Shown here piece after piece: positions 136 to 32,100 of a stretch of DNA of 43,858 nucleotides. The notes below the pieces were generated by a model that did not search any database, was not told where the DNA came from, and worked only from the letters and a program-made list of their open reading frames with translations. Location of the stretch: positions 11,583-55,440 of the forward strand of contig JAVHLK010000028.1 of assembly GCA_031082285.1 (NCBI GenBank), read 5' to 3'. The stretch's first letter is position 1, and each line of letters begins with the position of its first letter. This DNA comes from Desulfomonilaceae bacterium. Lineage in GTDB: Bacteria; Desulfobacterota; Desulfomonilia; Desulfomonilales; Desulfomonilaceae. The translations under genes were made by a program, and so were the position numbers.

Positions 136-165
136 CCGCGACACCGCACAAGAGGGGTGACCGAC

Positions 166-540
166 ATGCCGGAAGTACAGGTCTTGGATGAGGATCTCAA
201 CGGTCTCGGGTGGACGATAAAATCTCTGGTGGACGAGAACCTCGAACATCCGGAGGTCCAACGAAGCATTAAGAAGATTTCCGGATCGTTGGTAGTCACC
301 GAAAAGGATTCCGATGTGACGGTGACGCTTTTGTTCCGGCAGGGAGAGCTTGCGGTCCGGAACGGAGCCGTGGAAAAGCCTTCGGCCACCTTGGCCGGCG
401 GATTCGAGCAGCTTTCCGAAGTCATCAGCGGTCAGATAGGGCCCGTCAGGGCCGTACTGACGGGCCGCATTAAGGCCCGAGGCAACCTTATCAAATTGCT
501 CGCAATGGCGCGGGCGCTTATCAGCAAAGACAAGGGCTAG
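166..540 (+). CDS. SCP2-like sterol-carrier domain protein
   Basis: A 124-residue cytosolic protein resembling the single-domain SCP2 family, which binds hydrophobic ligands such as fatty acyl-CoAs. Typical features are a central strand-rich stretch (SDVTVTLLFRQGELAV), a segment ending in a Gly-rich turn (ATLAGGFEQLSEVISG) and a C-terminal amphipathic part (LTGRIKARGNLIKLLAMARAL). A GTG at 157 in the same frame is possible, but AGAGGGG at 151-157 overlaps that codon and sits eight bases from the ATG at 166, so the ATG is preferred. It lies 13 bases before the AOR gene in the same operon, which suggests a role in presenting or buffering a hydrophobic substrate; that role is inference. Confidence 0.7.
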   Translation: MPEVQVLDEDLNGLGWTIKSLVDENLEHPEVQRSIKKISGSLVVTEKDSDVTVTLLFRQGELAVRNGAVEKPSATLAGGFEQLSEVISGQIGPVRAVLTGRIKARGNLIKLLAMARALISKDKG

Positions 541-553
541 AGGGATCGGGACC

Positions 554-2413
554 ATGTCTGGATTCATGGGCAGAGTGCTGCGGGTAGATCTTACGGCCGG
601 CAGAATCGGAGAGGAGCCGGTATCTCAACAGGACGCTCGGGCATTCCTGGGCGGAAACGGTTTGGCCACCAAGTATCTATTTGATGAGCTTAGTGGGGGG
701 ATAGACCCATTAGGCCCTGAGAACAAGCTGGTCTACATGGCCGGGCCTTTGACCGGCACGATCTCGCCCAGTTCGGGCCGCTTCAGCGCAGTAGCGAAAT
801 CCCCGTTGACGGACCTGTGGGGCTCGTCCAATTCGGGTGGACGTTTCGGGCTGGACCTGAAGAGAAGCGGGTACGACGGAATCATCATCGAAGGGCAAGC
901 AGAAGAGCCGGCCGCGCTCGTCATCAAGGATGGATCGGCCGAACTGGTCTCCGCGCTCGAATTGTGGGGACTGGGCGTCGCTGAGACCACGAAGAGACTT
1001 AAGAGCAAGTACGGCAAGAGCCTCAACGTTTCGTGTATCGGTCGGGCGGGCGAAAATCTGGTCCGGTATGCCGCGATCGTCAACGATCTCCACCGAGCCT
1101 TGGGCAGGTGCGGGCTGGGAGCGGTAATGGGGAGCAAGAACCTCAAGGCGATCGCGGTGGGCGGCAACCGCTCTATTGAAGTGGCCGACAAGGAGGCGTT
1201 CAGCCGAGCGGCCAAGAAAGCGAGCGATTTCGTCAATGAAAGCATGTTGAAAATGACTCTGGAGGTCTACGGCACGGACATGGTGCTGGATCTCGTGAAC
1301 ATAAAGGGCGGCCTGCCCACCCGCAACTGGCAGACCGGGTCTTGCTCGTACGCCAGCGAACTCAACGGGCCCGCCATCAACGACAAAGTCCTGGTGGGGC
1401 GCAAGGCCTGTTTCGCGTGCCCTATCGCGTGCGGTCGTCTGTCCGAAGTGAAAACCGGAAAGTATAAGTGCAAGGGCGAAGGACCCGAATACGAAAGCGT
1501 GGGCGCTTTCGGCCCCATGTGCGATGTGAGCGATCTGGAGGCGGTCACCTATGCTCATATGCTCTGCAACGAGTACGGTTTGGACACCGTGTCCGCAGGG
1601 AGCACCATCGCATTTGCCATGGAGTGCTTCGAGAAGGGTATTCTCTCCAAGTCGGATTTGGGTGGGCATGAGCTGAAGTTCGGGGACGCGGACGCGATGA
1701 TTCAGATGATTCATCGCATCGCGGTCAGGGAAGGGGTGGGCGACCTTCTTGCGGAAGGAACCCGACTCGCGGCGCGCAAATTGGGGGCCGGTTCCGAACA
1801 ATTCGCAATGAATGTGAAGGGACTGGAACTGCCCGCCTACGACTGCCGTGCGACGAAAATCACTGGACTGGGATTCGTTACATCCAACCGCGGCGGCGAT
1901 CACATTACCGCATATGTGCAAGGCCCCACATTCCTGGACATCCCCTTCCTGATTGTGGAGGAGAGTTCAATAGACAACCCTCGGGTGGAAAACCCGGCCG
2001 AAGCCAAGGTCGTGATGGATCTCGAAAACGCGCTGACGGTATTCGACGCGGTGGGCGCATGCAAATTCATGGGAATGGCTCTCATGGCCGAAGACGTGGT
2101 CCCGGTGATCGCAGGGGTGACCGGATGGGATTTCTCGGTTGAGGAGTTCAGGACCGCGGGAGAACGGATTTTCAATCTTGCTCGACTGTTCAACGTGCGG
2201 GAAGGACTCACGAGGCAGGATGACACACTCCCCCCGCGGTTGCTCAACGAGCCTTTGCCCGACGGGCCTGCTGCGGGCCTGGTTGTCGATCTCGATCCGA
2301 TGCTTGAGGCGTACTACGAATTTCGCGGCTGGGACGCGGATGGGAGACCAACATTGAGAAAACTGCAGGAATTGGGTCTGGACCATAGAGCAGAAAAAGC
2401 GGGGATCGGTTGA
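554..2413 (+). CDS. aor: Tungsten-type aldehyde:ferredoxin oxidoreductase (AOR family)
   Basis: A 619-residue cytosolic enzyme matching the AOR family in length and order. The N-terminal domain, which binds the tungstopterin, has FLGGNGLATKYLFDEL and GPLTGT segments. The [4Fe-4S] ligands fit C286-x2-C289-x3-C293 plus C503 in DAVGACKFMG. The active-site acid region GPEYES is at about 311 and the conserved His follows in RGGDH at about 450. AORs oxidise aldehydes to acids and pass two electrons to ferredoxin at very low potential. Here the gene is followed two bases later by a CoA ligase and then an ATP-dependent radical reductase. It could therefore supply both the acid and the low-potential ferredoxin. 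BamB of class II benzoyl-CoA reductase is in the same family, but no BamC-I subunits are seen here. The start is supported by AGAGGGA about eight bases upstream. Confidence 0.9.
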   Translation: MSGFMGRVLRVDLTAGRIGEEPVSQQDARAFLGGNGLATKYLFDELSGGIDPLGPENKLVYMAGPLTGTISPSSGRFSAVAKSPLTDLWGSSNSGGRFGLDLKRSGYDGIIIEGQAEEPAALVIKDGSAELVSALELWGLGVAETTKRLKSKYGKSLNVSCIGRAGENLVRYAAIVNDLHRALGRCGLGAVMGSKNLKAIAVGGNRSIEVADKEAFSRAAKKASDFVNESMLKMTLEVYGTDMVLDLVNIKGGLPTRNWQTGSCSYASELNGPAINDKVLVGRKACFACPIACGRLSEVKTGKYKCKGEGPEYESVGAFGPMCDVSDLEAVTYAHMLCNEYGLDTVSAGSTIAFAMECFEKGILSKSDLGGHELKFGDADAMIQMIHRIAVREGVGDLLAEGTRLAARKLGAGSEQFAMNVKGLELPAYDCRATKITGLGFVTSNRGGDHITAYVQGPTFLDIPFLIVEESSIDNPRVENPAEAKVVMDLENALTVFDAVGACKFMGMALMAEDVVPVIAGVTGWDFSVEEFRTAGERIFNLARLFNVREGLTRQDDTLPPRLLNEPLPDGPAAGLVVDLDPMLEAYYEFRGWDADGRPTLRKLQELGLDHRAEKAGIG

Positions 2414-2414
2414 T

Positions 2415-4094
2415 ATGAGCGTGTATGATGGAAAAATCTGGCTGAGAAGCTACAAATTGGGCCCATTCGAGCTCGCCTCCACAATGGCGCCCTATCCCAA
2501 GGTGCCGGTCTTTACGTTCCTGGACGCCGCGGTGGCGAAGTTCGCAAGACGCCCGGCGTGTCTGTATAGGGATCGGGCCATGACGTACAAGGAGTTGGGA
2601 GGCCTCGTGAACAGACTGGCCTCAGGGCTCCGGTCCATCGGTGTGGAGCCGGGGGATCGGGTGGCCACGATACTTAACACTTCACCTCAGTACGTCATCT
2701 CCGACTTCGCGATCCAAAAAGCGGGTGCCGTGCACGTGCCGTGCAGCCCGCTTCACAGGTGTCACGATCTTGCCCTTGAGATCGGCGCATCAGGCGCGGA
2801 AACCCTTATTTGTCTGGACGATAATCTCTCTGAGGTTATGTCGCATGATTTCTCCGCAGGTTTGAGAAATATCATCACAACCTCGGCAGATGACTTCTCG
2901 GCAATGGAATCGGAAACGGTATCGAGGCCCGGCAGACTAAACCTTCGAGATCTGATCGAGCAGGCGGATCCAACCCCTCCGACGGTGGACATCGATCCGG
3001 AGGAGGACCTGGCCCTGTTGGTTTTCACCGGCGGGGCCACAGGGCGTCCCAAGGGAGTCATGCTGACCCACTATAACCTCGTTGCCAATACCATCCAAGC
3101 ACTTCCTTGGGCCATCGGTCCGTTGCGGAACGGCATTATCGGCAAGTCATCCGTCCTGATCGGGATACCGGTGTTTCACTCCTACGGTCATTGGGCCATC
3201 CGAGCGGCCGTCTACTGGGGACTGCAGATGATTATGATCCCGGACCCACGGGACACTCCGGGCATCGCCGCACTCTTGAAAGCGCACCGGCCGTTCATGG
3301 CCCCGTTGGTCCCAACCCAGTACATGAAATTGCTCGAACATGGGGTGGGCCGTACCAATACCACGTTCACCTCGGGCGCGGCCCCTTTGCCGCCCGAACT
3401 GGCCGCGCAATTCAGAAAGATGACCGGCATGCCGATCACGGAAGCGTACGGGTTGACTGAAACCAGTCCGGTAACACACTTCAACCTCTCCAGCTTTTCC
3501 AAAATTACGGGGTTTATGCCGAGCGAGAAGAAGGCATCCATCGGAGTTCCCGTTGCAGATACCGAAGCCAGGCTCGTGGACCCGGTCGTGGGTTCGGAGG
3601 TTCCGGTAGGGGAGGTGGGGGAATTGTACATCAGGGGACCGCAGGTGATGAAAGGCTATTGGCCGACACCCGGCAGGGGATTGGCCAACGGGTGGCTCCC
3701 CACGGGCGATCTGTGCCGGATGGATTCCGAGGGCTACTTCTATCTGGTGGACCGAGACAAAGACATGATCAACGTGAGCGGCAACAAGGTGTACTCGACA
3801 CGCGTCGATGAGGTCATCTTCGAACACCCGGGGGTCGCCCAGGCCGTAAGTATAGGAATACCCGACGGCGATCGCCCGGGAAGCGAGCGGGTAAAAGCTT
3901 TTGTCGTCGTCAAGGAGTCTTACGCGGGGAAGCTGACGGAAGAAGAGCTCATTGCACACTGCAGTGAACGGCTCGCCCCGTACGCGGTGCCCAAGACCAT
4001 CGAGTTCAGAGCCGGCTTGCCCATGACGGTCACACAGAAGCTGTTCAAGAAACAACTTCGGGACGAGGAAATCGAGCGATCCAAACGCCGTTAA
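2415..4094 (+). CDS. AMP-forming acyl/aryl-CoA ligase
   Basis: A 559-residue member of the ANL adenylating superfamily, which makes acyl-CoA from acid, ATP and CoA through an acyl-AMP. Visible motifs are the phosphate loop TGGATGRPKGVMLTH (about 213-227), the A5 motif EAYGLTETSP, the A7 TGDL, the hinge region DRDKDMINVSGNKVY and a C-terminal lysine region (MTVTQKLFKKQLR) in which the adenylation lysine is kept although the usual TGK reads TQK. The start is ATG 2415, directly after the AOR stop, so translation is probably coupled. The ligand pocket cannot be read by eye, so benzoate, a substituted benzoate or a fatty acid are all possible. The neighbours favour an aromatic or unsaturated acid produced by the AOR. 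Confidence 0.88.
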   Translation: MSVYDGKIWLRSYKLGPFELASTMAPYPKVPVFTFLDAAVAKFARRPACLYRDRAMTYKELGGLVNRLASGLRSIGVEPGDRVATILNTSPQYVISDFAIQKAGAVHVPCSPLHRCHDLALEIGASGAETLICLDDNLSEVMSHDFSAGLRNIITTSADDFSAMESETVSRPGRLNLRDLIEQADPTPPTVDIDPEEDLALLVFTGGATGRPKGVMLTHYNLVANTIQALPWAIGPLRNGIIGKSSVLIGIPVFHSYGHWAIRAAVYWGLQMIMIPDPRDTPGIAALLKAHRPFMAPLVPTQYMKLLEHGVGRTNTTFTSGAAPLPPELAAQFRKMTGMPITEAYGLTETSPVTHFNLSSFSKITGFMPSEKKASIGVPVADTEARLVDPVVGSEVPVGEVGELYIRGPQVMKGYWPTPGRGLANGWLPTGDLCRMDSEGYFYLVDRDKDMINVSGNKVYSTRVDEVIFEHPGVAQAVSIGIPDGDRPGSERVKAFVVVKESYAGKLTEEELIAHCSERLAPYAVPKTIEFRAGLPMTVTQKLFKKQLRDEEIERSKRR

Positions 4095-4210
4095 GTAGTC
4101 CGACTCAGTACTCTTTGGCATAAACCTCCATGATCGCCCCGATTATGGGGGGTTAGGAAATCGACCGCTAAGCCGGCGCATTCACCTTGAAAAAAGGTAG
4201 GGAGGAAACC

Positions 4211-5335
4211 ATGACCGCTCTGGAAGAACTTTTTCGGGTTCCCCACCGAACCGAGAACCCGTACATCAAGGACTGGAAAGGGAACGGCGGCCGAGTCATA
4301 GGGTTCACCTGCAGCTATGTTCCGGAAGAGATCATCCATGCGGCGGGCCTCCTGCCGTACCGCATCGAGGCTCGAGGATGCCGGGAAACCGACTTGGCCG
4401 ACGTGTATATGCATCGATTCAACTGCACGTACGCGCGATGCATATTGCAGGAAGGTCTTTCGGACCGATACGACTTTCTTGACGGAATGTGCCTCCTGAA
4501 CGGATGCGAGCAGATTCGTCGTCTGTACGAGATCTGGGACGCGGAGCACAAGACCGATTACATGTACATGGTAACCATTCCTCACTCCGTGTACGACGAG
4601 GGACTTGCCTGGTACAGAGACGAGATCTTCAATTTCAAAGAGAAACTCACGAGCGACTTCGCGGTAAGGTGCTCCAAAAAGGATTTGCAGAATTCCATTC
4701 AGGTCTACAATGAAACGAGACGCTTGATCCGGGAACTCTATGAGCTGAGGAAGACGAAAGATGTCCCCATCAGCGGTTCCGAAGCTCTCCGGATTGTGTT
4801 GTCCGCATACGTCATGCCCAGAGAAACGTATAACGAGCTTCTGAAACTGGCTCTGCATGAAGTTCGGTCGAGAGAGGGGAATTCCTCGTACAAGGCTCGC
4901 TTGCTCGTGGGAGGTTCGGCGGTCGACGGGCCCGAGCTCTTCGAGCTGATCGAGGGGATGGGGGGCATGATTGTTGCCGACACGCTTTGCTGTGGGTCGA
5001 GACAGTTCGACATGACGGTTTCGGAAGACGCAGACCCCTTGGATGCACTGACCCGGGCGTACTATGTGAAGAACCCGTGTCCTCGAATGATGAACGAGTA
5101 CAAGAGCAGATTGAAATACACCATAGACGCGGCGCAAGCCGCGTCCGTAGACGGAGTCATCCTTCAGAAAATCGTGTTTTGCGACAACCATGCCGTGGAC
5201 GGCACCATGTTGGCCGATGACCTGGAAGCCGCAGGCATACCGACTATGGTTATGGAACGAGACCATATGCTCACCGACACCGGTCGTCTGAGAACCAGGG
5301 TCGAAGCATTCATGGAGAGGATCGCCGGGAGGTAA
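4211..5335 (+). CDS. Benzoyl-CoA reductase / 2-hydroxyacyl-CoA dehydratase family subunit, BcrC/BzdN-like
   Basis: A 374-residue protein of the HgdB/BcrC family, whose members hold an Fe-S cluster and carry out ketyl-radical chemistry on acyl-CoA thioesters. The signature EEIIHAAGLLPYRIEARGC sits at 39-57, and cysteines at 34, 57, 72, 77, 94 and 99 supply candidate cluster ligands. A second Rossmann-like half follows with VVD/VFCDNHAVD near the end. A TTG at 4187 is in frame, but GGGAGG six to seven bases before ATG 4211 fixes the start there. The length matches BzdN/BcrC. It begins a four-gene set (4211-8390) in the order described for bzdNOPQ of Azoarcus-type benzoyl-CoA reductases. The substrate is not proved by sequence alone. 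Confidence 0.85.
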   Translation: MTALEELFRVPHRTENPYIKDWKGNGGRVIGFTCSYVPEEIIHAAGLLPYRIEARGCRETDLADVYMHRFNCTYARCILQEGLSDRYDFLDGMCLLNGCEQIRRLYEIWDAEHKTDYMYMVTIPHSVYDEGLAWYRDEIFNFKEKLTSDFAVRCSKKDLQNSIQVYNETRRLIRELYELRKTKDVPISGSEALRIVLSAYVMPRETYNELLKLALHEVRSREGNSSYKARLLVGGSAVDGPELFELIEGMGGMIVADTLCCGSRQFDMTVSEDADPLDALTRAYYVKNPCPRMMNEYKSRLKYTIDAAQAASVDGVILQKIVFCDNHAVDGTMLADDLEAAGIPTMVMERDHMLTDTGRLRTRVEAFMERIAGR

Positions 5336-5341
5336 GCGAAA

Positions 5342-6736
5342 ATGAACAACGGGAAGGATAGGACGGTTTTCAACAACTGGCGAGTGACGGTGGATCTGGC
5401 CAATTTCGTCTTGGAGCAAGACGGCCTCACGTCTCTTGACGATTGGGGCGGCAAGGAGGTCGTGAGGGAAATACTGCCTGAACACATGAGAAACGTCTTC
5501 GATAGGGTTCAGCCCGATCTGATTGACTGCATTCTGAAGGACCGGAACAGGAGAACAGCGTCGTCGTTCCTGAACAATGTGGTCAAGTTCGTGGACTACT
5601 GCGAGGCGCTCATGGATGACAACAGGCCTGTCTGTTACCACTACTTTCCCATTAGCGTAGAGATTCTCCTTGCCATGGGGATTGCTCCCATCTGTTACGA
5701 AGTAGTGTGCGGTCTCGATTCCGCACTCTACATTGACGGTGCCGAAGCCGGTATCGATAGAATAGAGGCGGAAGGGTACCCGGACCATCTCTGCTCCACC
5801 CAGAAAGGCACGGCCGGATATCTGCTCATGGACATGGTTCCTAAACCGGATTTCCTCGTGAAGTCCGCCACACCGTGCGACTCGAGCAACAAGCTTTACG
5901 AATGGACCTCCGTGAGGTTCGATGCGCCCCTGATCATGCTGGAAACACCATATTACAGGAACGAACGGGGCCATCGGTTCGCCGTAGGCGAAGTCAAGAG
6001 GATGATTCGTGAGTTGGAGAAGCTCACCGGCGCTCAACTTGATGAGGATCGGTTGAGGGGATTCTGTGAGGTCGGAAATGAAACGGTCGATTACATCCTC
6101 AAGATACAGGAACTGAAGCGAAAGAAGCCGTGTCCCGACACCGGTTGGCACAGACCTGCCGACACCATCTTCATGACCCAGATCGGCACCCCCTTTGGTA
6201 AGGACTATTTCAGGACCCTCTACGAAACGGTCAAAGAGAGGGTGGACGCAGGAGTAGGCATCATCCCGGAGGACAAGAAGGAACGGCGGCTCGCGTGGGG
6301 ATACACATGGGAAGTCTACGATCTCCCGTTCTTTGACTGGCTTGAGCAGGAGCACGGGGCAACCTACAGCCTGGATACGCTCACTTATCTTTCGCCGGAG
6401 GTGGGCCTCGTAGATACCACAAATATGGAGACGATGATCGAGGGGCTTGCATGGCGATTATTGAACATGCCCATGGGGAGACAGACCATGGGGTTTTCCG
6501 ACGTATGGATAGGCGATTTCGTGAGGATCGCCAAGGAGTACAAGATAGACGCGTTCGTCATCGGGGGACACATGGCATGTAAACACTTCTGGGCTCTCAA
6601 CAAGCTTCTCACGGACAAGATCAAAGAAGAGGTCGGGATTCCCACTCTCCGGTTCGAGATGGATATGTTCGACAAGAGGTTCACGCCGCCCTCCGAGTTG
6701 AAGCGCATCATGAATGAGTTTTTCGCAACCGTGTGA
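5342..6736 (+). CDS. Benzoyl-CoA reductase / 2-hydroxyacyl-CoA dehydratase family subunit, BcrB/BzdO-like
   Basis: A 464-residue partner of the preceding subunit and the larger of the two, as BzdO/BcrB is. It has the family arrangement NRPVCYHYFPISVEILLAMG, the loop GYPDHLCSTQKGTAG (about 149-163), KSATPCDSSNKLYEW, and a C-terminal half containing IGGHMACKHFW. The conserved cysteines in these loops are candidates for bridging [4Fe-4S] ligation. It starts six bases after the previous stop with GGGAGGTAA overlapping that stop, so the two chains are likely made in equal amounts. Together they would form the catalytic module that receives electrons from the ATPase module encoded next. Confidence 0.85.
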   Translation: MNNGKDRTVFNNWRVTVDLANFVLEQDGLTSLDDWGGKEVVREILPEHMRNVFDRVQPDLIDCILKDRNRRTASSFLNNVVKFVDYCEALMDDNRPVCYHYFPISVEILLAMGIAPICYEVVCGLDSALYIDGAEAGIDRIEAEGYPDHLCSTQKGTAGYLLMDMVPKPDFLVKSATPCDSSNKLYEWTSVRFDAPLIMLETPYYRNERGHRFAVGEVKRMIRELEKLTGAQLDEDRLRGFCEVGNETVDYILKIQELKRKKPCPDTGWHRPADTIFMTQIGTPFGKDYFRTLYETVKERVDAGVGIIPEDKKERRLAWGYTWEVYDLPFFDWLEQEHGATYSLDTLTYLSPEVGLVDTTNMETMIEGLAWRLLNMPMGRQTMGFSDVWIGDFVRIAKEYKIDAFVIGGHMACKHFWALNKLLTDKIKEEVGIPTLRFEMDMFDKRFTPPSELKRIMNEFFATV

Positions 6737-6803
6737 CGCGTGAGCGGCACGGGCGCCCGGGCAAGTGAGCAAGAAACAAGACTAAGACAGCCGGAGATTC
6801 CCT

Positions 6804-7595
6804 ATGATTGTGCTCGGATGTGATGTGGGAGCCATGGCCGCCAAGATCGTGCTCCTGGAAAACGGCAATCTGATCGGCCACAAGATCGCGGCCGCCGAAG
6901 GCAAGATTGCGGAAGTGGTCGACACATCAATCGACCGTCTCCTGGCGGCAACCGGGATCGGCATGAAGGACATTCATGAATGTGGAGGAACGGGCCGAGG
7001 TGAGAAGTATATCTCGTTTGCGCATACCGGCGAGGGTCTAATGAACTGCCTGGCACGGGGAGGCTTATGGGCCGTGCCGGAGGCGAGAACCATTGTCGAC
7101 ATGGGAGGGTTGGCCGGCACGGTGCTCAGCATCAATGAGAAAGGAAAGGTCCTTGAGTACCGTTCCAACGACCGGTGCGCCGCAGGTACGGGGTTCTTCC
7201 TGGAACTGGCCGCGCAGGCATTGGAGCTCACCGTGGATGAACTCGGTCCACTTTCTCGGCAGGCGAAGGGGCGAGTGCAAATCAGTTCTCAGTGCGCAGT
7301 GTTTCGGGAGAGTGAGATCGTCACCCACGTCAACGAAGGTAAAGACGTCGCGGATATCGTGGCCGGCATCAATCATGCGCTCGGGCTCGCCGCAGCCACC
7401 ATGGTCAGAAGGCTGGGGGCTAAGCCGGAAATTGTTGTCACCGGTGGAGTGGCGAAGAACGAAGGCGTGGTCAAGGCGCTTGAAGCAAACGTGGGGATGG
7501 AGATCAAGGCGGCAGGTACGGACCCTCAACTGATTGGAGCGATCGGAGCCGCTCTTGGCGCCGCGTCGTCCTCACAAAGACGGGAGACGGGATAA
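6804..7595 (+). CDS. BadF/BcrA/BcrD-type ATPase subunit 1 (BzdP/Q-like activator)
   Basis: A 263-residue member of the ASKHA-fold ATPases that hydrolyse ATP to drive electron transfer from ferredoxin to the BcrBC-type module. C125 in DRCAAGTGFF and C164 in SSQCAVFRESEI match the two cysteines that, with the partner chain, hold the shared [4Fe-4S] cluster. Phosphate loop 1 reads GCDVGAMAAK with K14 kept. The usual DIGGQD phosphate-2 motif is changed to DMGGLAGT at 99-106. That departure suggests altered nucleotide chemistry in this chain. A CCGGAG sequence lies about 11 bases before ATG 6804. Two unlike ATPase genes, rather than one, point to a benzoyl-CoA-reductase-like heterodimer and away from 2-hydroxyacyl-CoA dehydratases, which use a homodimeric activator. 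Confidence 0.85.
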   Translation: MIVLGCDVGAMAAKIVLLENGNLIGHKIAAAEGKIAEVVDTSIDRLLAATGIGMKDIHECGGTGRGEKYISFAHTGEGLMNCLARGGLWAVPEARTIVDMGGLAGTVLSINEKGKVLEYRSNDRCAAGTGFFLELAAQALELTVDELGPLSRQAKGRVQISSQCAVFRESEIVTHVNEGKDVADIVAGINHALGLAAATMVRRLGAKPEIVVTGGVAKNEGVVKALEANVGMEIKAAGTDPQLIGAIGAALGAASSSQRRETG

Positions 7596-8390
7596 ATGAT
7601 CGTAGCGGGATGCGACGTGGGCTCACTTTCGGGCGAAGCCGTGATACTTAAGGACAATTCCATACTGACGTACGAAATCATGAGAGTCCGTCCTCGACCT
7701 GAACAGACGGCCCAGGACGTCATGATCAAGGCGCTTTCCAAGGCCGATCTGACTCTGGCCGATCTCGACTATTGCGTGAGCACCGGGTACGGTCGGGAAA
7801 AGATCCCCTTTGCCCACAGCAGTATTTCCGAAATATCGTGTCATGGAAGGGGTGCTCATTGGGCAAACACCGAAGTGAGAACCGTGATTGACATCGGCGG
7901 CCAGGATTGCAAGGTGATTCGGGTCGACAAGCGCGGATACATGGTGGACTTCGCCATGAACGACAAATGTGCCGCGGGTACGGGGCGATTCCTGGAGGGA
8001 ATGGCAAAGGCCCTTGGAGTAAGCTTGTCGGAAATGGGTCCGCTGAGCTTCGAATCCTCTTCTCCCATAGGAATCACCAAGACGTGCAGTGTGTTGGCCC
8101 AATATGACGTGGTATGCATGATCAACGACGGGATGGAAGTGGCCGACATCGCGGCCGGGATCAACAAGGCCATGGCGGAGCGCATCAGCAAGATGACAAA
8201 GAAGGTAGGGGTGCGCAAAGAAGTGGCCATGACCGGCGGAGTCGCGAAGAACTCGGGGGTGGTCCACGGCTTGAAGAAAGTCCTGGATGTCGACATCGTG
8301 GACCTGAACGGCGTGGATCCTCAGATTGTGGGGGCGCTCGGCGCCGCACTCTTCGCACAGGAGCGCGCGGAACGCGAATTGCGAAAATAA
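7596..8390 (+). CDS. BadF/BcrA/BcrD-type ATPase subunit 2 (BzdP/Q-like activator)
   Basis: A 264-residue paralogue of the preceding subunit, starting on the base after its stop codon, with GGAGACGGGA as the upstream ribosome-binding region. C125 (DKCAAGTGRF) and C164 (TKTCSVLAQY) fall at exactly the same positions as in its partner, which fits a pseudo-symmetric heterodimer bridging one [4Fe-4S] cluster. Here the phosphate-2 motif is canonical (DIGGQDCK at 99-106), but phosphate loop 1 reads GCDVGSLSGE, with Glu at position 14 where the partner has Lys. The two chains have therefore lost different motif residues. The C-terminal MTGGVAKNSGVV adenosine motif is intact. Confidence 0.85.
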   Translation: MIVAGCDVGSLSGEAVILKDNSILTYEIMRVRPRPEQTAQDVMIKALSKADLTLADLDYCVSTGYGREKIPFAHSSISEISCHGRGAHWANTEVRTVIDIGGQDCKVIRVDKRGYMVDFAMNDKCAAGTGRFLEGMAKALGVSLSEMGPLSFESSSPIGITKTCSVLAQYDVVCMINDGMEVADIAAGINKAMAERISKMTKKVGVRKEVAMTGGVAKNSGVVHGLKKVLDVDIVDLNGVDPQIVGALGAALFAQERAERELRK

Positions 8391-8414
8391 GAAAAGGGTA
8401 AGGAAGCCGAAGTC

Positions 8415-9212
8415 ATGCAGACGGACTCCAATGCAAGGTCTCGTGGAGAGATTCTGGCCGTCACCGGAAAGGGCGGTACGGGCAAGACCACGACAACCGC
8501 CATAATGGCCAAGCTGCTTGTCCAACAAGGGGTGAGGCCCCTGGTGGTGGACGCGGACCCTCCGGTGAGCCTGGCCTATGCGTTGGGCGCCGAGCCGACC
8601 AAGACCCTGGGACTCTTCAGGAAGAAATTGATCGAAGATCCCCGGGAAAAAAGGCGAATCGCGGATTCCGAAAGGCATATGCGAGAGTTCATTTACGATG
8701 AGGTCCTCATGGAGGTCGGCGGGGCATCCCTCCTCGTTCTCGGGCGAGCCGAGGGACCGGGATGCTTCTGCGGAATCAATGAACTGCTGAAGTTCGGGAT
8801 CCAGTCTCTATCGGACAAGTATGCGATCACCTTGATCGATTGCGAAGCCGGAATCGAACAGATCAACCGCCTTGTCGTCAATCGTTTGACAACCCTCCTG
8901 ATTGTTTCGGATGCGTCGGTTAAGGGTATCCGAACCGCGGAACATCTTAGCCGGGTCGCCGGGGAATACGCAGTGGACGGCACCTTCAGAGTAGGCCTGG
9001 TCATCAACAAGGCCGGGATGGACATTCATCCGCTGGAAAAGAGGGCCGAAGAAATCGGCTTGGAAATCGTCGGACTAATTCCTGAAGATGAGAACGTGGC
9101 CGAATTCGACCTGTTGGGAACGCCCACTACGGCGCTTCCCGATGACTCCCCCTGTGTGAACGCGGTCCGAGGCATTATGGAACGGCTGAAACTCATTGAC
9201 CCGGTAGGGTAG
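8415..9212 (+). CDS. CooC/MinD-like P-loop ATPase, metal-cofactor maturation type
   Basis: A 265-residue SIMIBI-class ATPase with a deviant Walker A, GKGGTGKTT (18-26). A C117-x-C119 pair in GPGCFCG is like the metal-binding CxC of CooC that joins two monomers. The later segments TLIDCEAGIEQINR and VINKAG match the switch and base-recognition regions of the family. CooC proteins help insert nickel into carbon monoxide dehydrogenase; no such enzyme lies in this window. Its position as last gene of the AOR/reductase operon, 24 bases after the ATPase pair with AAGGAAG upstream, suggests help with building or loading a metal cluster of those enzymes. That role is inference. Confidence 0.8.
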   Translation: MQTDSNARSRGEILAVTGKGGTGKTTTTAIMAKLLVQQGVRPLVVDADPPVSLAYALGAEPTKTLGLFRKKLIEDPREKRRIADSERHMREFIYDEVLMEVGGASLLVLGRAEGPGCFCGINELLKFGIQSLSDKYAITLIDCEAGIEQINRLVVNRLTTLLIVSDASVKGIRTAEHLSRVAGEYAVDGTFRVGLVINKAGMDIHPLEKRAEEIGLEIVGLIPEDENVAEFDLLGTPTTALPDDSPCVNAVRGIMERLKLIDPVG

Positions 9213-9854: not shown

Positions 9855-9894
9855 TATCTATTTGGTCAAGAAAGGACTGCAACGGGAGAACAAC

Positions 9895-10362
9895 ATGCGT
9901 ATTGCCACGACGAGCCGATACGCAGTACGCGCCGTATTCGATGTCGCGTACCATGGAGGGGGAGTGCCGACGCAGATCAAAGACATCTCCCGCCGCCAGA
10001 GGATCTCTCAGAGATACCTGGAGCAGATATTTAACAAGCTTCTCAGGGCCGGTCTGCTCAAGAGCAGACGTGGACCGCGTGGAGGATACCTCTTGGCCGA
10101 CGATCCGGCCAAGATCACGGTAGGAGACATCGTGCTCGCGGCCCAAGGGCCGATCGTGCCCGTAGCTTGCCTGGAGCACGACCCCTCGGACGATGACGGC
10201 TGTGAAATGGCTCTACACTGCGTGACGCGGCACGTGTGGGGAGAGACGCAGAAGTTGCTCATAAACTACTTCAATTCGGTGACGATAGCCGACCTTTGCG
10301 CGCTGGCCCGCGAGCAGCACATCAGCAGAGAACTCGACCACAAATATATGTATTTCATCTAA
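9895..10362 (+). CDS. Rrf2/IscR-family transcriptional regulator
   Basis: A 155-residue winged-helix regulator. The N-terminus MRIATTSRYAVRAVFDVAY and the recognition region ISQRYLEQIFNKLLRAGLL, followed by the wing RGPRGGYLLA, are typical of the family. C92, C103 and C109 resemble the three cysteines of IscR that hold an Fe-S cluster, although the first spacing is longer (10 residues between instead of 5). That suggests sensing of iron-sulfur status, oxygen or redox. An in-frame ATG at 9862 would add 11 residues, but GGGAG seven bases before 9895 and the family N-terminus favour 9895. Targets could include the neighbouring Fe-S-rich operon; this is inferred from proximity only. Confidence 0.85.
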   Translation: MRIATTSRYAVRAVFDVAYHGGGVPTQIKDISRRQRISQRYLEQIFNKLLRAGLLKSRRGPRGGYLLADDPAKITVGDIVLAAQGPIVPVACLEHDPSDDDGCEMALHCVTRHVWGETQKLLINYFNSVTIADLCALAREQHISRELDHKYMYFI

Positions 10363-10846: not shown

Positions 10847-10984
10847 TCACCAATTGAGCATGGTGTACCCGGAAATGCCCGCAAAGCAAGCCCCCGGCTG
10901 TGACCTCGGCTGTACCATCTCGACGGGGGTGCCGCCTCCGCCGATAGTCGCAACCTTTGCCAATGTGAATAGTGGCTGTTTCAT
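10847..10984 (-). pseudogene. Remnant of a type I restriction specificity subunit (HsdS) N-terminus
   Basis: On the minus strand the ATG at 10984 overlaps the stop of the HEPN gene (ATGA). It starts MKQPLFTLAKVATIGGGGTP, closely like the start of an HsdS target-recognition domain, where GGGTPS/R is characteristic. After the TP the frame continues to a stop with no further similarity. Moving one base within the run of five C residues gives GGGGTPSRW, nearer the usual HsdS sequence, before another stop. This looks like a frameshifted, truncated hsdS. The assignment rests on a short motif only. Confidence 0.45.
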
Positions 10985-11382
10985 GGTGCTGCCTCAGCTT
11001 CGTCCAACAAGCCACCGACATGCGCCGTAAAATGCTCAACCTCGGAAATAACCTGAACCCGATCGATCTCGTGAGGTAACACGGGAAAGTCGTAGCGAAA
11101 CTGAACCGCGAAGTCAGTGAGATCTACTAGCCTTGAAAAGGGGTGGCAGTCCTCATGCGTCTGAGTCTGGAGCAAGCTCATGAGAAGCCGAAGGTCGTGT
11201 GTTTTCGGATAGGCAACGCCCCGCAGGGTCAACCATGCTTTGAGTGCTTTCTCGACTGCTTGTTGTGCGTGAAACCCGAAGACCGAGTCCTCGAACTCTT
11301 CAGGAGAGAGCATGTTCCGGATGGCCTTCAGGTCCACCTTGGCAAGGCCGAGCATCCTTTCTGCGTCTTCACGGTCGATCAT
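10981..11382 (-). CDS. HEPN-domain protein, toxin partner of an MNT-HEPN pair
   Basis: A 133-residue HEPN protein with the family signature FHAQQAVEKALKAWLTLRG (about 37-55), followed by PKTHDLRLL and, near the end, FRYDFP. Proteins of this class act as RNases or as partners of a minimal nucleotidyltransferase. A strict R-x4-6-H RNase motif is not evident: the nearest is R54 with His62, seven residues between, so catalytic activity is uncertain. The start overlaps the nucleotidyltransferase gene by 14 bases, so translation is probably coupled. It sits between apparent restriction-system fragments, a setting in which MNT-HEPN pairs do occur. Confidence 0.8.
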   Translation of the reverse strand: MIDREDAERMLGLAKVDLKAIRNMLSPEEFEDSVFGFHAQQAVEKALKAWLTLRGVAYPKTHDLRLLMSLLQTQTHEDCHPFSRLVDLTDFAVQFRYDFPVLPHEIDRVQVISEVEHFTAHVGGLLDEAEAAP

Positions 11383-11713
11383 AGAGGACCCTGCCTTCTC
11401 TCATGGAACGGGCTATTACATGGTTCGTCGAGTCTTTCCACTTTTCGACCTCTTCAGGCGTGAAGAGAAGTACGTCTATGGGAACGGGAAACCGCCAGAG
11501 TGCCTTTCGTATGCGGCTGGACTCGCTCCACCGGGACCCGCCCTGAAATGATGACTCTTTCTCTACGACAAGGAGGTCCACATCCGAATCCGGTCCTGCA
11601 TCTCCCCGTGCTGCAGACCCGAAGAGAATGATCCGATCCGGATCGGAAGTTTCTACGATGGCTTTCACTATGTCCTCTATGATGGAACCAACGGTGTCTT
11701 GGTGGTCGGTCAT
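11369..11713 (-). CDS. MNT-type nucleotidyltransferase, antitoxin partner of HEPN
   Basis: A 114-residue minimal nucleotidyltransferase. The catalytic signature GSAARGD followed by SDVDLLVV (about 32-50) is complete, including the G-S and the D-x-D metal ligands. The final metal Asp is plausibly in PIDVLLF. In studied pairs, the MNT protein adds AMP to the HEPN toxin and so silences it. The ATG at 11713 overlaps the stop (ATGA) of a decayed upstream frame, which shows that this was once the downstream gene of a larger minus-strand operon. Confidence 0.82.
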   Translation of the reverse strand: MTDHQDTVGSIIEDIVKAIVETSDPDRIILFGSAARGDAGPDSDVDLLVVEKESSFQGGSRWSESSRIRKALWRFPVPIDVLLFTPEEVEKWKDSTNHVIARSMREGRVLYDRP

Positions 11714-26695: not shown

Positions 26696-26986
26696 ACGCA
26701 TGAGGCGCGCCGGCGGGCCATTGGTGCTCCATGCCCGCGAATCGGCATTATTGTTCACTGAAGAACGCCGGGAGTCGAGTTGAACTTCGGGCGTCGGCAA
26801 CACGCACACATAAAAAATGGTCATTCGGAAAAACACATTCCGATCAAAGGTGTCCCATCTATTACGCTTCTTCCGGCCGCGTGAGAGCCGGATAAATGTT
26901 GACTGCCCAGGAGATGGTAACGAATGTGTGCGTAGAGTGGAGTTACTGTTCCTCAAAGAATGTCCTTAGATCCGAGGTTGCGAACG
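26696..26986. other. Gap before the copper-efflux operon
   Basis: No gene. An imperfect hairpin has outer arms ACGCC (26765-26769) and GGCGT (26790-26794) and could end the permease transcript, but lacks a T run. The operon's promoter is not clear; TTGACT at 26898-26903 is not matched by a good -10. Confidence 0.35.
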
Positions 26987-29101
26987 ATGAGTGAGAGCGG
27001 AATGCCGTCCCGGCCATTGAAGAAGCTCGCGAAGGCAATGGTGCTTATAAGTCTTGTTGGTGCTGCGTTTGGACTCGGTTACTTCCTGTCCGGAAGTGTG
27101 GATCGCTCCGCGGATGTGGATAGCCGCATGAAGGAAGCGCAGCATCACGATCACGAAGAGAAGACCGTCGCGAAATCATCAATCTGGACCTGTTCGATGC
27201 ATCCCCAGATTAGGCTGCCGAAGCCCGGGAAGTGCCCCATCTGCTTCATGGACCTCATCCCTCTTACGTCCGAAGACACCGATTCGTCGACCGCCGGCCT
27301 GACCACGTACACCATGTCGGAAACCGCCAAGAGGCTTGCAGAAGTTGAGACCGATGTGGTCAAACGGGAACAGGCCAAGGTCGTGGTTCGCATGGTGGGC
27401 ATGGTTTTCGAGGACGAGACTCGGATAGCAGCTCTCACTTCCCGTGTCGACGGCCGGCTCGATGAGATCTACGTCAATTTCACGGGGACACAAGTGAAAG
27501 AGGGCGATCCCATGGTCAAGATCTGGAGTCCCACCCTTATCACGAGTCAGGTGGAGCTTTTCGAGGCCACGCGGTCTTCCGAACCGGATGAGGACTTCAT
27601 GACCGGCGCCGAGGAAAAGCTGATCCAACAAGGGCTCACCAGGGAACAAGTGGAGCGGATCAAACTCGGGGGAAAACCCATTCTGTACGTCACTCTGCGG
27701 GCGCCCATCAGCGGCGTCGTCATGAAGCGAATCGCGGTCCTGGGACAGTTCGTGAAGGAAGGGACCGAAATGTACAGCATCAACGATCTCTCACACGTCT
27801 GGATCAAGATGGATGCGTACGAGACGGACCTTCCCTGGATCAGGTACGGTCAGGACGTAACGTTTACAACTCCGGCCCTTCCGGGCAAGCGATTCAAGGG
27901 AAAGGTGCTCTTCATCGACCCTACGTTGGAAGGACGGACGCGCTCGGTCAAGATACGAGTGGAAGCGTCAAACCCGGACTTGCTCCTGAAGCCCGGCATG
28001 TTCGTGAGCGCGGAACTTGAAGCCGAGATCGATGCCGCCGGCAAGGTGGTCAAGTCCGAGTGGACCGGAAAGTATATCTGCCCGGTGCATCCCCGCGATC
28101 AACCAAGCTCCGAACCGGGTATCTGCCCGGACAGCAAAGTACCTCTTAAACCTGCATCGGCGTTCGGATATTCACAGGATGACCAACCCGAACTTCCTCT
28201 TGTCATTCCCGCAACAGCACCCCTGATTACGGGCACGCGAGCCATAGTGTACGTCGAAGTACCGGGTGCGGAGAGACCGACCTATGAATTGCGACAGGTC
28301 GTGCTCGGTCCGAGAGCGGGAGATAAGTACGTCGTCTATGAAGGGCTCAAGGAAGGCGATCGGGTCGTAGTGAAAGGCAATTTCAAGATCGACAGCGCCA
28401 TGCAGATCCTCGCCCGACCCAGCATGATGAATGAGATCGAGGGGCCGGAAGAAGGCCGTACAGCCGCGAAAGAGGAGCCCCGGGAAGAGGAGGCGGTCGC
28501 CCGGATCGAAGCTCCCCGTGATTTCATAGAGAAGTTCACCCCTGTCTTCAGCGAGTATCTGGCCCTCAAGGATGCCCTTGTCGAAGAGAGGACCGATCTT
28601 GCCGTGGAGCATTCGCAAAGCATGGGGACCGCGGTCGAAGTGATTGATACGGCGGGCTTGAGCGAAACCGCGGCGCGAACGTGGAAAGATCTCTCCGCTG
28701 AGATGACCGCAAGCCTGGATGCCGTTGCGGCCGCAGAAGATGTGGAAGGTCAACGAAAGGCGTTTGCTCCTCTCTCCGAGGCCTTGGCCAGAGCGCTTAT
28801 GAGCTTTCGTCACGTCAGGAATGAGCCGATCGTTTTGTACCATTGCCCAATGAGCTTGGACGAGGAAGGTGCATACTGGATGGAATCGACCGAGGATCCC
28901 AAGAATCCGTATTTTGGTCGCAAGCCTTACCAGGGGCAGGTCATGCTTCAATGCGGGGAGATTTTAGAGAGGATCCCCGGAGTGCCTCCGGCCGTATCTC
29001 CTACCGGTGAAGCACACGATTCTTCCGAGACCGATCGGACCGGCTCATCCGGTGGAGGTGCCGGCACAGAGGAATCCGGAATGGAGGCCGCCGGAAAATG
29101 A
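26987..29101 (+). CDS. cusB: CusB-type periplasmic adaptor of a heavy-metal efflux pump
   Basis: A 704-residue adaptor that links the inner-membrane pump to an outer-membrane channel. A membrane anchor (about 17-36) is followed by His-rich HHDHEE and a metal-binding TCSMHPQ...KCPICFMDLIPL motif (69-92). The barrel-sandwich region follows, with LTSRVDGRLDEIYV and RAPISGVVMKRIAV. A second CPVHPRD...GICPDSKV motif appears near 370, and a C-terminal domain with YHCPMS and a Cys near QCGEIL recalls the DUF3347 metal-binding part. Starts at 26960, 26987 and 27002 are in frame; 26987 is chosen because GAGG precedes it. Overlap of four bases with the pump gene marks one operon. Confidence 0.88.
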   Translation: MSESGMPSRPLKKLAKAMVLISLVGAAFGLGYFLSGSVDRSADVDSRMKEAQHHDHEEKTVAKSSIWTCSMHPQIRLPKPGKCPICFMDLIPLTSEDTDSSTAGLTTYTMSETAKRLAEVETDVVKREQAKVVVRMVGMVFEDETRIAALTSRVDGRLDEIYVNFTGTQVKEGDPMVKIWSPTLITSQVELFEATRSSEPDEDFMTGAEEKLIQQGLTREQVERIKLGGKPILYVTLRAPISGVVMKRIAVLGQFVKEGTEMYSINDLSHVWIKMDAYETDLPWIRYGQDVTFTTPALPGKRFKGKVLFIDPTLEGRTRSVKIRVEASNPDLLLKPGMFVSAELEAEIDAAGKVVKSEWTGKYICPVHPRDQPSSEPGICPDSKVPLKPASAFGYSQDDQPELPLVIPATAPLITGTRAIVYVEVPGAERPTYELRQVVLGPRAGDKYVVYEGLKEGDRVVVKGNFKIDSAMQILARPSMMNEIEGPEEGRTAAKEEPREEEAVARIEAPRDFIEKFTPVFSEYLALKDALVEERTDLAVEHSQSMGTAVEVIDTAGLSETAARTWKDLSAEMTASLDAVAAAEDVEGQRKAFAPLSEALARALMSFRHVRNEPIVLYHCPMSLDEEGAYWMESTEDPKNPYFGRKPYQGQVMLQCGEILERIPGVPPAVSPTGEAHDSSETDRTGSSGGGAGTEESGMEAAGK

Positions 29102-32100
29102 AATCCTCGAGTGATCATCCCCCGGAAGCGCTTCATGGTGCGGCCGGAAAATCGTTATTTGCACCCGTGATGCGTTTCTGGGTTCAACAGAAGCTCTTCG
29201 CGACGGCCATTCTGATCCTCGTGATCGTATCCGGAGTGATGGTCGCGCCTTTCGATTGGGATATTCCCTGGTTGCCGCGCAATCCGGTGCCGGTGGACGC
29301 AATCCCCGACATCGGCGAGAATCAACAGATTGTGTTCACTACGTGGGAAGGGCGTTCTCCCAAAGACGTCGAGGATCAGATTACATACCCTCTCACCGTC
29401 TCTCTCCTCGGAATTCCGGGAGTCAAGTCTATCCGGAGTAATTCCTTTTTCGGCTTCTCGACCATTTACATTATCTTCAGCGAGGAGATCGATTTTTACT
29501 GGTCCAGATCGCGAATCCTGGAGAAGCTGAACTCGCTGCCGTCGGGAACTTTGCCGGAAGGGGTCCAGCCGATCCTGGGGCCCGATGCCACGGCTTTGGG
29601 ACAAGTATTCTGGTATACCCTCGAAGGCGAAGGGTTTGGGTTGGACGAGCTTCGTTCCATCCAAGACTACTACGTGCGATACGCGCTGCAATCCGCAGGA
29701 GGGGTGAGTGAGGTTGCGTCGGTCGGCGGGTACGTCAAGGAGTACCAAGTGGACATCAACCCCGATGCCATGCGGGCTCACTCCATAACCTTACCCGAAG
29801 TGTTCGATGCGGTGCGAATGGCAAACCTCGATGTCGGCGCCGGAACGATCGAAGTCAACAGAACCGAATATGCCATTCGCGGCCTCGGATTCATCAAGTC
29901 CGTGTCGGATCTCGAACAAAGCGTGGTCAAGGTAAATGAAAATGTCCCGCTGTTCATCAAGGACGTAGCGACGGTTAACCTCGGGCCGGCCATGCGCCGC
30001 GGAGCGCTTGACAAGGAAGGCGCGGAAGTGGTGGGGGGGGTGGTGGTCGTTCGCTTTGGGGAAAATCCCCTTCAGATTATCAAGAACGTCAAGAAGAAGA
30101 TCGAGGAGATCTCTCCCGGTTTGCCGACGCGAACACTTCCCAATGGAAAGGTCTCTCGGGTGAGGATCGTTCCTTTCTACGACCGCACCGAGCTCATCCA
30201 CCAGACGCTTGAAACGCTCAAGAAGGCCCTCACCGAAGAGATTCTCGTCACCATCATCGTAGTGATCGTGATGGTCAACCACCTGGTCAGTTCAGCGTTG
30301 ATTTCCACTGTTCTGCCGCTGGCGGTCCTTTTTACGTTCGGCGTGATGAAGATGGTAGGGATCGACGCCAACATTATGGCATTGTCAGGAATTGCCATCG
30401 CGATCGGCGTCATGGTGGACATGGGGATCATACTCAGTGAGAACATTCTGCGTCATATCGAGAACGATCCACCGGGAAAGAGCACCCTCGCGATGGTACG
30501 GGATGCCGCGTCCGAGGTGGGTGGAGCGGTCATGACCTCATCGCTCACCACCATCATTTCCTTCATCCCGGTCTTTGCCCTCACCGGGCCCGAGGGAAAG
30601 CTCTTCAAACCGGTGGCGTTTACCAAGACCTTTGCCGTCGGGGCGTCTCTCGTCCTTGCCCTTGCCTTGATACCCCCATTGGCGCACGTCGTGTTCACGA
30701 AGCGAAACTTCCGCAAGAACACGCTCATCCTCATGTACACGGCAGTCGCGGCCGCAGGGATTTGGACCGGGACGACCCTTTCCTGGTGGATTGGGGCGCC
30801 GCTGCTTCTTGTGGCGGTGATCAAGGGTGCGGGACTCTTTGCACCCCCATCCGTAAGTAACCAGACCACAAGAGTTCTGAACACGGCGGCCCTGATCTTC
30901 GTGGTCGTCATTCTCACCGCCCATTGGCAGCCTCTTGGCCCTCAGACCGGATTCGTGCGCAACCTCATCTTTACCTCGGGAATTATCTTCGGACTGCTCG
31001 GCGTCAGAAAGGTCTTCACCGCTTTCTATAGGCCGTTCCTGCGGTGGTGTCTCGACCATAAGGCCGCGTTTCTCGTTCTGCCCCTCTCACTGGTGTTGTT
31101 CGGCGCAACGATATGGCTCGGGTTCGACCGCGTGTTCTCGTTCATTCCCTGGACCGCGGACCGCATCCTCGGACCTCCCGGTCCCGTCGTGACGGCTCAA
31201 CACGATCACGGCCCGGCTCCAAAGAGCGACGCGGTCACTCCTGATTACGGCGCGCCTGCGCGGGGCAACATCATCCGAGATACAAGGCTTTGGTCAAAGC
31301 TGTCCCACATGTTTCCCGGTCTCGGAAAGGAGTTCATGCCTTCGCTTGATGAAGGTTCGTTTCTCTTCATGCCGACGACCATGCCTCACGCGTCCATCGG
31401 TGAGGCGCTGGACGTAATTCAGAAGCAGGACCTGGCCATCAGATCCATACCGGAAGTGGAGTCCGTGGTGGGCAAGATAGGTCGAGTGGAGAGTGCACTC
31501 GATCCCGCGCCTTTATCCATGGTCGAGACGGTCATCACATACTTGCCTGAGTACAAGGTCGATCCCGAAACGGGAGAGAAAGTCCTCGATCCCGAGACCG
31601 GAATGCCCGTTCGAAATTGGCGACCCCGAATCAAGTCGCCGGACGACTTGTGGAAAGAGATCGTCAGGGTTGCACAACTCCCCGGCTCCACCTCGGCGCC
31701 GAAACTGCAGCCCATTGCGGCCCGCGTCGTCATGCTCCAGAGCGGAATGCGCGCCGCAATGGGGGTCAAGATCCGGGGCAGCAGCCTCGAAGAAGTGGAG
31801 CGGGTCGGGTTCGAGATCGAACGCTTCCTCAAAGAGGTGCCTTTGGTTGAACCCGCATCGGTCATAGCGGACCGGGTGGTGGGCAACCCGTACCTCGAAA
31901 TCGACATCGACCGACGGGCCATTGCCAGATACGGAATCAGGATTCAGGACGTACAAGACGTGATCGAAATAGCCATCGGCGGCAAGCGGATCACCACCAC
32001 CGTGGAAGGTCGCGAGCGTTACCCGGTGCGCATACGGTATCAGCGCGAATTGCGGGATTCCCTTGAAGCAATCGGTCGCATCCTCGTGCCGGGACAAAAC

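Follow-up and report, generated by a model that had tools for sequence, protein, structure and literature searches.

A Candidate ATP-Dependent Double-Cubane Acyl-CoA Reductase Encoded with an Aldehyde:Ferredoxin Oxidoreductase in a Desulfomonilaceae Bacterium

Introduction

A 43,858-nucleotide stretch of DNA from a Desulfomonilaceae bacterium (GCA_031082285.1, contig JAVHLK010000028.1, positions 11,583 to 55,440; hereafter, the window) encodes two HGD-D chains, here termed N and O, and two unlike ATPase chains, P and Q, next to an aldehyde:ferredoxin oxidoreductase (AOR) and an acyl-CoA ligase. The locus raises the question of which reaction such an assembly carries out. A preliminary description had likened it to BzdNOPQ, a class I benzoyl-CoA reductase (BCR), coupled to the AOR and the ligase. 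The question is addressed here through observed gene content, synteny, cofactor ligands, and clade placement, with comparison to the 2-hydroxyacyl-CoA dehydratases (HAD), DCCP, and the class II enzyme BamB.

Gene Organization

The genes lie on one strand in the order SCP2, AOR, AMP-forming ligase, N, O, P, Q, and CooC-like ATPase, forming a tight run that spans 157 to 9212 of the window (Table 1). From SCP2 to the CooC-like gene, the intergenic gaps are 13, 1, 116, 6, 67, 0, and 24 bases. The reading frames of N, O, P, and Q are all intact; N starts at the ATG at 4211, with AGGGAGG upstream, while the mechanical ORF begins at TTG 4187. The tight succession of two HGD-D and two unlike BcrAD_BadFG chains, as initially described, is confirmed by these intact frames and by Pfam, and so is the close linkage to the AOR and ligase upstream, which is conserved across four families.

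Simple scans for promoter and terminator signals returned no more than in shuffled sequence and thus neither support nor refute a single transcript. A 100-N scaffold gap ends just before the first base of the window and separates it from upstream genes on the same contig, which encode an acyl-CoA-dehydrogenase-like protein (ACD), an SCP2-like protein, and a Fer4 protein. The operon probably begins upstream of the window, across this gap.

Table 1. Genes of the operon within the window
Feature	Coordinates	Strand	Evidence
SCP2-domain protein, 127 aa	157..540	+	Pfam SCP2 1.9e-9; 39-47% identical homologue at the same position in G367, G069, G333
Aldehyde:ferredoxin oxidoreductase (AOR), 619 aa	554..2413	+	Pfam AFOR_C 5e-138; phmmer vs 1aor
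AMP-forming acyl-CoA ligase, 559 aa, fatty-acyl-CoA-ligase-like	2415..4094	+	Pfam AMP-binding 4e-84
HGD-D subunit N, predicted electron relay, six-Cys [8Fe-9S] double-cubane site	4211..5335	+	Pfam HGD-D 6e-94
HGD-D subunit O, predicted catalytic subunit, three-Cys open [4Fe-4S] site	5342..6736	+	Pfam HGD-D 7e-54
ATPase chain P, degenerate partner	6804..7595	+	Pfam BcrAD_BadFG 6e-43; motif table
ATPase chain Q, complete activator motifs	7596..8390	+	Pfam BcrAD_BadFG 3e-59; phmmer; motif table
CooC-like MinD/CbiA P-loop ATPase, CxC motif (GPGCFCGIN), putative cluster-maturation factor	8415..9212	+	Pfam

Family Placement of N and O

Both N and O are placed in a large clade without characterised members, and O stands apart from the class I BCRs. 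Among NCBIfam models, N scores 196 bits with the double-cubane model, 180 with both BzdN and HadC, and 162 with BcrC; the corresponding values for O are 58 (double-cubane), 50 (HadB), 48.6 (BcrB), and 24.5 (BzdO). Both chains are far below every curated cut-off (453.8 bits for BzdN, 448.6 for BzdO, 421.2 for BcrC, 486.6 for BcrB, and 350 for double_cubane), and for both the double-cubane model scores highest. The best phmmer match of N among solved chains is BzdN (8s02_B, 3.6e-51).

The reference chains BzdNO, MbdNO, HadBC, and DCCP were read from PDB alignments, in which BzdO residues 282-352 are missing. No BzdO above the cut-off was found in a sample of 398 Pseudomonadota genomes; the follow-up gave a genuine BcrB (888 bits), and this BcrBC pair serves as a reference and appears in the trees as L125. 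In the maximum likelihood tree of O (IQ-TREE), a window clade of 27 rows is split with support of 100/99 from an 11-row reference group that includes BcrB, BzdO, MbdO, and the dehydratase HadB, i.e., all characterised reductases and the dehydratase. BzdO forms a long branch, so where precisely it sits within the reference group is uncertain. The maximum likelihood tree of N recovers a window clade of 21 rows (99/95), with BzdN near it at a position that the tree leaves unresolved and DCCP, used as the outgroup, on a separate branch (100/100). The proposed membership in BzdNOPQ or any class I BCR family is therefore not borne out, either by the scores or by O, which lies outside the clade of BCRs and HadB. 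The window clade holds no aromatic reductase among the references available, an outcome that the preliminary description had named as refuting its reading; it is, however, neither a dehydratase nor a DCCP clade. An AlphaFold model of O built from two sequences (pLDDT 37, pTM 0.30) is too poor for structural use.

Cofactor and Active Sites

In BzdO, three cysteines (Cys95, Cys128, and Cys380) ligate the [4Fe-4S]-OH2 cluster; Glu65 and His131 are placed at its water molecule, and Tyr97 is on the thioester, whose oxygen it holds. The [8Fe-9S] double-cubane of BzdN, an electron-storage cofactor, is held by six cysteines (PMC11971306). According to the same source, DCCP, a reducer of small molecules, is the sole other protein known to carry a double-cubane, and HAD is without one.

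Aligned with DCCP, the six BzdN ligands read as Cys36, 73, 100, 263, 293, and 327. All six are kept in the window N, as in BzdN and DCCP. N also keeps the equivalents of Arg53, Arg267, and His330 and has a lysine at the Arg290 position. The six-cysteine set is not kept in HadC, BcrC, MbdN, or the HAD-like pair of the same genome. The double-cubane subunit supports the earlier reading of the locus as having features of an ATP-dependent reductase.

O keeps the three cluster cysteines (Cys95/128/380) and Glu65, and it is without three of the six double-cubane cysteines. Neither Trp46 nor His131 of BzdO is kept, and Tyr97 is replaced by threonine. Tyr97 is present in 8/8 rows on the BCR/HAD reference side versus 1/32 on the window side, the latter including three or four rows that the O tree puts outside the 27-row window clade. 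Conversely, a histidine three residues before Cys380 occurs in 25 of 31 window-side rows versus none of the eight reference rows. His131 was dropped as a separator of the clades, being absent from BcrB, MbdO, and HadB as well; because it is missing on the reference side too, only Tyr97 and the new histidine are used as clade markers. With six cysteines kept in N and Tyr97 lost in O, N has an electron-storage site of the Bzd/DCCP type and O an altered active site. Without Tyr97, O would have to bind CoA esters in another way, or its substrate may be something other than a thioester.

ATPases and the CooC-Like Protein

Q has the complete set of activator motifs (GGQDCK, TGYGR, and KCAAGTG), and its highest-scoring phmmer match is HadI (1.2e-61), with MbdQ at 2.2e-57. 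P keeps both cluster cysteines and has GGLAGT in place of GGQDxK and TGRGE in place of TGYGR. Its orthologues likewise keep both cluster cysteines and have lost GGQD, and most have lost the arginine of TGYGR. In a quick tree, the window-type P and Q group together (SH-aLRT 87), apart from MbdP/Q, the BcrA-like chains, and HadI. Two unlike chains are present, as in class I enzymes, but given this grouping and the loss of GGQDxK in P they are probably the product of a separate duplication and not a sign of the BCR family.

The CooC-like label stands. The protein has a P-loop MinD/CbiA fold according to Pfam, and its GC[FY]C (CxC) motif, which is known from CooC, is invariant across 8/8 loci. A corresponding role in cluster maturation is predicted from these features.

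AOR, Ligase, and Associated Proteins

The AOR, probably an enzyme of the tungsten type, has AFOR_N and AFOR_C domains and contains both the CxxCxxxC cysteines (286/289/293) and C503. By score, it is an aldehyde oxidoreductase and not BamB; the phmmer scores of 520 bits to 1aor versus 214 bits to BamB (4z3w) rule out the latter assignment. The ligase scores 346 bits with NCBIfam PRK06187, below the cut-off of 476, and its nearest solved chains are fatty-acyl/feruloyl-CoA synthetases (~210 bits). The SCP2 protein is a probable carrier of a hydrophobic substrate. The SCP2 proteins, together with a ligase of the fatty-acyl type, point to a hydrophobic substrate for the operon.

A second AOR-ligase pair occurs in the same genome beside an amidohydrolase (L126:11692-15351, G000 C291), the two proteins being 59% and 49% identical to those of the operon; the contig of this pair gave no HGD-D match. 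The ACD-like protein of the operon (L074:8624-9883) carries methionine in place of the usual catalytic glutamate, with IWMGG for IYEGT. This replacement is common to the window genome, G367, and G069, while the G333 version keeps the glutamate and its operon also encodes EtfBA (loci L064, L065, and L066).

Conservation and Spread

The search with O covered 395 genomes from the phylum together with 31 relatives. Orthologues occur in G142 (68% identity), G069 (64%), G367 (63%), and G333 (46%), and the order AOR-ligase-N-O-P-Q-CooC is common to these and the window genome, i.e., five genomes from four families, with EtfBA inserted between AOR and ligase in G333. The same order in the other four genomes indicates that the arrangement is not due to chance. 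SCP2 precedes AOR in G367, G069, and G333; the G142 contig starts inside AOR, placing the SCP2 position beyond it. Four operon genomes have the ACD-like gene and a second SCP2 gene upstream; for both genes, synteny with the window's contig extends to G367, G069, and G333, with 50-71% identity.

The operon is patchy, being present in 3/42 genomes of the class, 1/18 of the window's family, and 1/36 of the family of G333, which suggests horizontal spread. It looks mobile, and its hosts are strictly anaerobic bacteria. More distant N-O-P-Q sets (~40%) are found in G174, G077, and G041 in other gene settings, which makes the AOR-ligase link a trait of one subclade. The G077 set adjoins FAD oxidoreductases and an SDR, while the G174 contig begins at N, its upstream genes falling outside the contig. 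Across the N/O clade, the gene neighbourhood is one of acyl-CoA metabolism, with genes for ACD, EtfBA, ligase, thiolase, and acyl-CoA mutase. A tblastn search of plasmids gave distant relatives only. Three hits from Marinomonas (67 residues at 32%) were also noted. No description of the clade or operon, including the activity of any member, was found in the open-access literature, to which the search was confined.

Two loci are of separate note. In G075 (L071:6921-15494), one run holds two N/O-type pairs together with another, highly diverged HGD-D chain and the large subunit of a methylmalonyl-CoA-mutase-like protein. On a Rhizobium leguminosarum plasmid (L131), an N/O pair and two activase genes lie beside bile acid:sodium symporter and rhodanese-like genes.

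Benzoyl-CoA and the Host Genome

The host genome encodes a BamB (L139) that scores 1267 bits over 651 residues against the solved class II enzyme, as well as an Oah/BamA above the cut-off (560 bits). With genuine BamB and BamA/Oah, benzoyl-CoA has an ATP-independent route of its own in this organism. No Oah above the cut-off was found in G142, G367, G069, or G333, whose genomes are 91-99% complete. Both observations speak against benzoyl-CoA as the operon substrate, which is unlikely. A DCCP-like protein of the true type is also encoded elsewhere in the host genome (L001). The benzene-activation "Magic" cluster of PMC13101534 consists of different genes, and identity with the operon was ruled out.

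Proposed Pathway and Alternatives

We infer every reaction step that follows, as well as an acyl-CoA substrate other than benzoyl-CoA. The SCP2 proteins would hold the substrate. AOR would oxidize an aldehyde to the acid, reducing two one-electron ferredoxin equivalents, and the AMP-forming ligase would convert the acid to its acyl-CoA. The Q/P activator would hydrolyze ATP and raise electrons from ferredoxin to the N double-cubane, with Q as the active chain and P as a degenerate partner sharing the bridging [4Fe-4S] cluster. N would store the electrons and hand them to the open [4Fe-4S] cluster of O for the two-electron reduction of the acyl-CoA, and CooC would mature a cluster. The stoichiometry of this scheme would close, since one aldehyde oxidation yields two electrons and one reduction takes exactly two.

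It is an evenly balanced proposition that the new clade represents an ATP-dependent double-cubane two-electron acyl-CoA reductase, here in an operon for the breakdown of a hydrophobic aldehyde or the corresponding acid. Its parts differ in strength. An acyl-CoA is quite probable as the substrate class, and a net reductase is nearly as well favoured; a reductase is preferred over a dehydratase because the known double-cubane proteins are reductases. Coupling from AOR through ferredoxin to the reductase is plausible, while the chance that AOR feeds both substrate and electrons is about even. A point against a linear pathway is the AOR-ligase pair at L126, which is seen without the reductase; the AOR of the operon could work backwards or on its own.

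The last point leads to an unlikely alternative, in which AOR works backwards or separately, using low-potential ferredoxin to reduce the acid to the aldehyde, and NOPQ consumes in parallel instead of acting as a later step. Acid reduction with H2 is within the reach of the Aromatoleum aromaticum AOR (PMC9295118), and the occurrence of the AOR-ligase pair without NOPQ at L126 is in keeping with such a role. However, each of the five operon genomes has AOR linked to the ligase and NOPQ (with EtfBA intervening after AOR in G333), an arrangement consistent with a linear pathway, and the ligase and a reverse AOR would compete for the acid. Rather unlikely is a radical 2-hydroxyacyl-CoA dehydratase, in which N and O would eliminate water from a 2-hydroxyacyl-CoA and the ATPase pair would be a catalytic activator only. 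Membership in the same superfamily, the proximity of Q to the HAD activator HadI, and NCBIfam scores for HadB/HadC similar to those for BzdO/BzdN all fit this reading, but N has a full double-cubane site that is absent from HadC, O lies outside the clade holding HadB, and the ATPase is heteromeric with a degenerate P chain instead of a single activator with complete motifs. Moreover, no genes forming 2-hydroxyacyl-CoA were recognised in the block.

A further reading is a DCCP-like enzyme that reduces some small molecule other than a CoA compound, the AOR and the ligase taking part in unrelated steps. This would accord with the double-cubane model being the best NCBIfam score of N and O and with the loss of the thioester-site Tyr97. 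It is quite unlikely, given that DCCP branches separately from N, that a true DCCP-like protein is encoded elsewhere in the host genome, that O has a single three-cysteine site and not a double-cubane one, and that the operon carries a ligase and an ACD. A canonical Bzd-type class I benzoyl-CoA (or methylbenzoyl-CoA) reductase, dearomatising benzoyl-CoA derived from benzaldehyde, is very unlikely. The closeness of N to BzdN among solved chains with its six-cysteine site, the two unlike ATPases, a ligase and AOR that could supply benzoyl-CoA and ferredoxin, and the Oah of the host genome are what it would explain. Against these stand N and O scores far below the BzdN/O and BcrB/C cut-offs, the position of O outside the BCR and HAD clade, and the loss of Tyr97 and His131 in O (the latter absent from BcrB and MbdO too), together with the class II BamB of the host genome and the lack of an Oah above the cut-off in the four other operon genomes.

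Beyond the proposed acyl-CoA reductase, a more far-reaching and tentative possibility is that N and O form a third branch, distinct in function, within the BCR/HAD superfamily. Such a branch would comprise an ATP-driven reductase whose active site is rearranged (no Tyr97 and a clade-specific histidine beside the third cluster cysteine), an activator made asymmetric by a dead ATPase chain, a non-benzoyl substrate, potentials beyond ferredoxin, and a cluster matured by a dedicated CooC, possibly with a second metal.

Relation to Known Systems

To our knowledge, the use of ATP and a double-cubane to push electrons below the ferredoxin potential is known only for benzoyl-CoA-type reductases and DCCP, and we know of no physiological role for the latter. 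If the proposed function is correct, a widespread clade would combine the same electron machinery with a different active site for biological Birch-type reductions on new substrates. The linked AOR and ligase would offer a concrete, testable route to the substrate and to a redox-self-balanced pathway from aldehyde to reduced acyl-CoA in strict anaerobes.

As judged from sequence, the reductase resembles BzdNOPQ in its electron supply and is not a family member by the tests made. Like the enzyme from Aromatoleum sp. CIB (PDB 8s02; PMC11971306), it has two HGD-D and two ATPase chains, an N chain with a six-cysteine [8Fe-9S] site in mostly the same charged surroundings, and an O chain with a three-cysteine open [4Fe-4S] site and Glu65. 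In contrast to BzdNOPQ, O belongs to a separate clade, does not keep Tyr97, Trp46, or His131, and has the clade-specific histidine before Cys380; P is without GGQDxK, and the operon includes CooC, AOR, and SCP2. The (R)-2-hydroxyisocaproyl-CoA dehydratase HadBC with HadI shares the fold family, and Q scores highest to HadI; however, HadC is without the double-cubane cysteines, HadB keeps Tyr97, and there is one homodimeric activator. DCCP (PDB 6eno and 7yyl; E. coli YjiM) has the six-cysteine ligand set in common with N and provides the best NCBIfam model for N and O, but it is homodimeric and on a separate branch, whereas N/O is heteromeric with only one six-cysteine chain. Class II BamB belongs to the AOR superfamily, as does the operon AOR, which differs in being an aldehyde oxidoreductase by score.

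Other Features of the Window

Downstream of the operon and on the same strand, 9862-10362 encodes an Rrf2/IscR-like regulator that could sense FeS status. On the minus strand, HEPN and MNT-type nucleotidyltransferase genes with a 14-base overlap (10981-11713) form a probable HEPN-MNT toxin-antitoxin pair. A heavy-metal-type efflux system at 26960-32958 consists of a CusB/HlyD-like fusion protein with a heavy-metal-binding domain and an AcrB/CusA-like pump.
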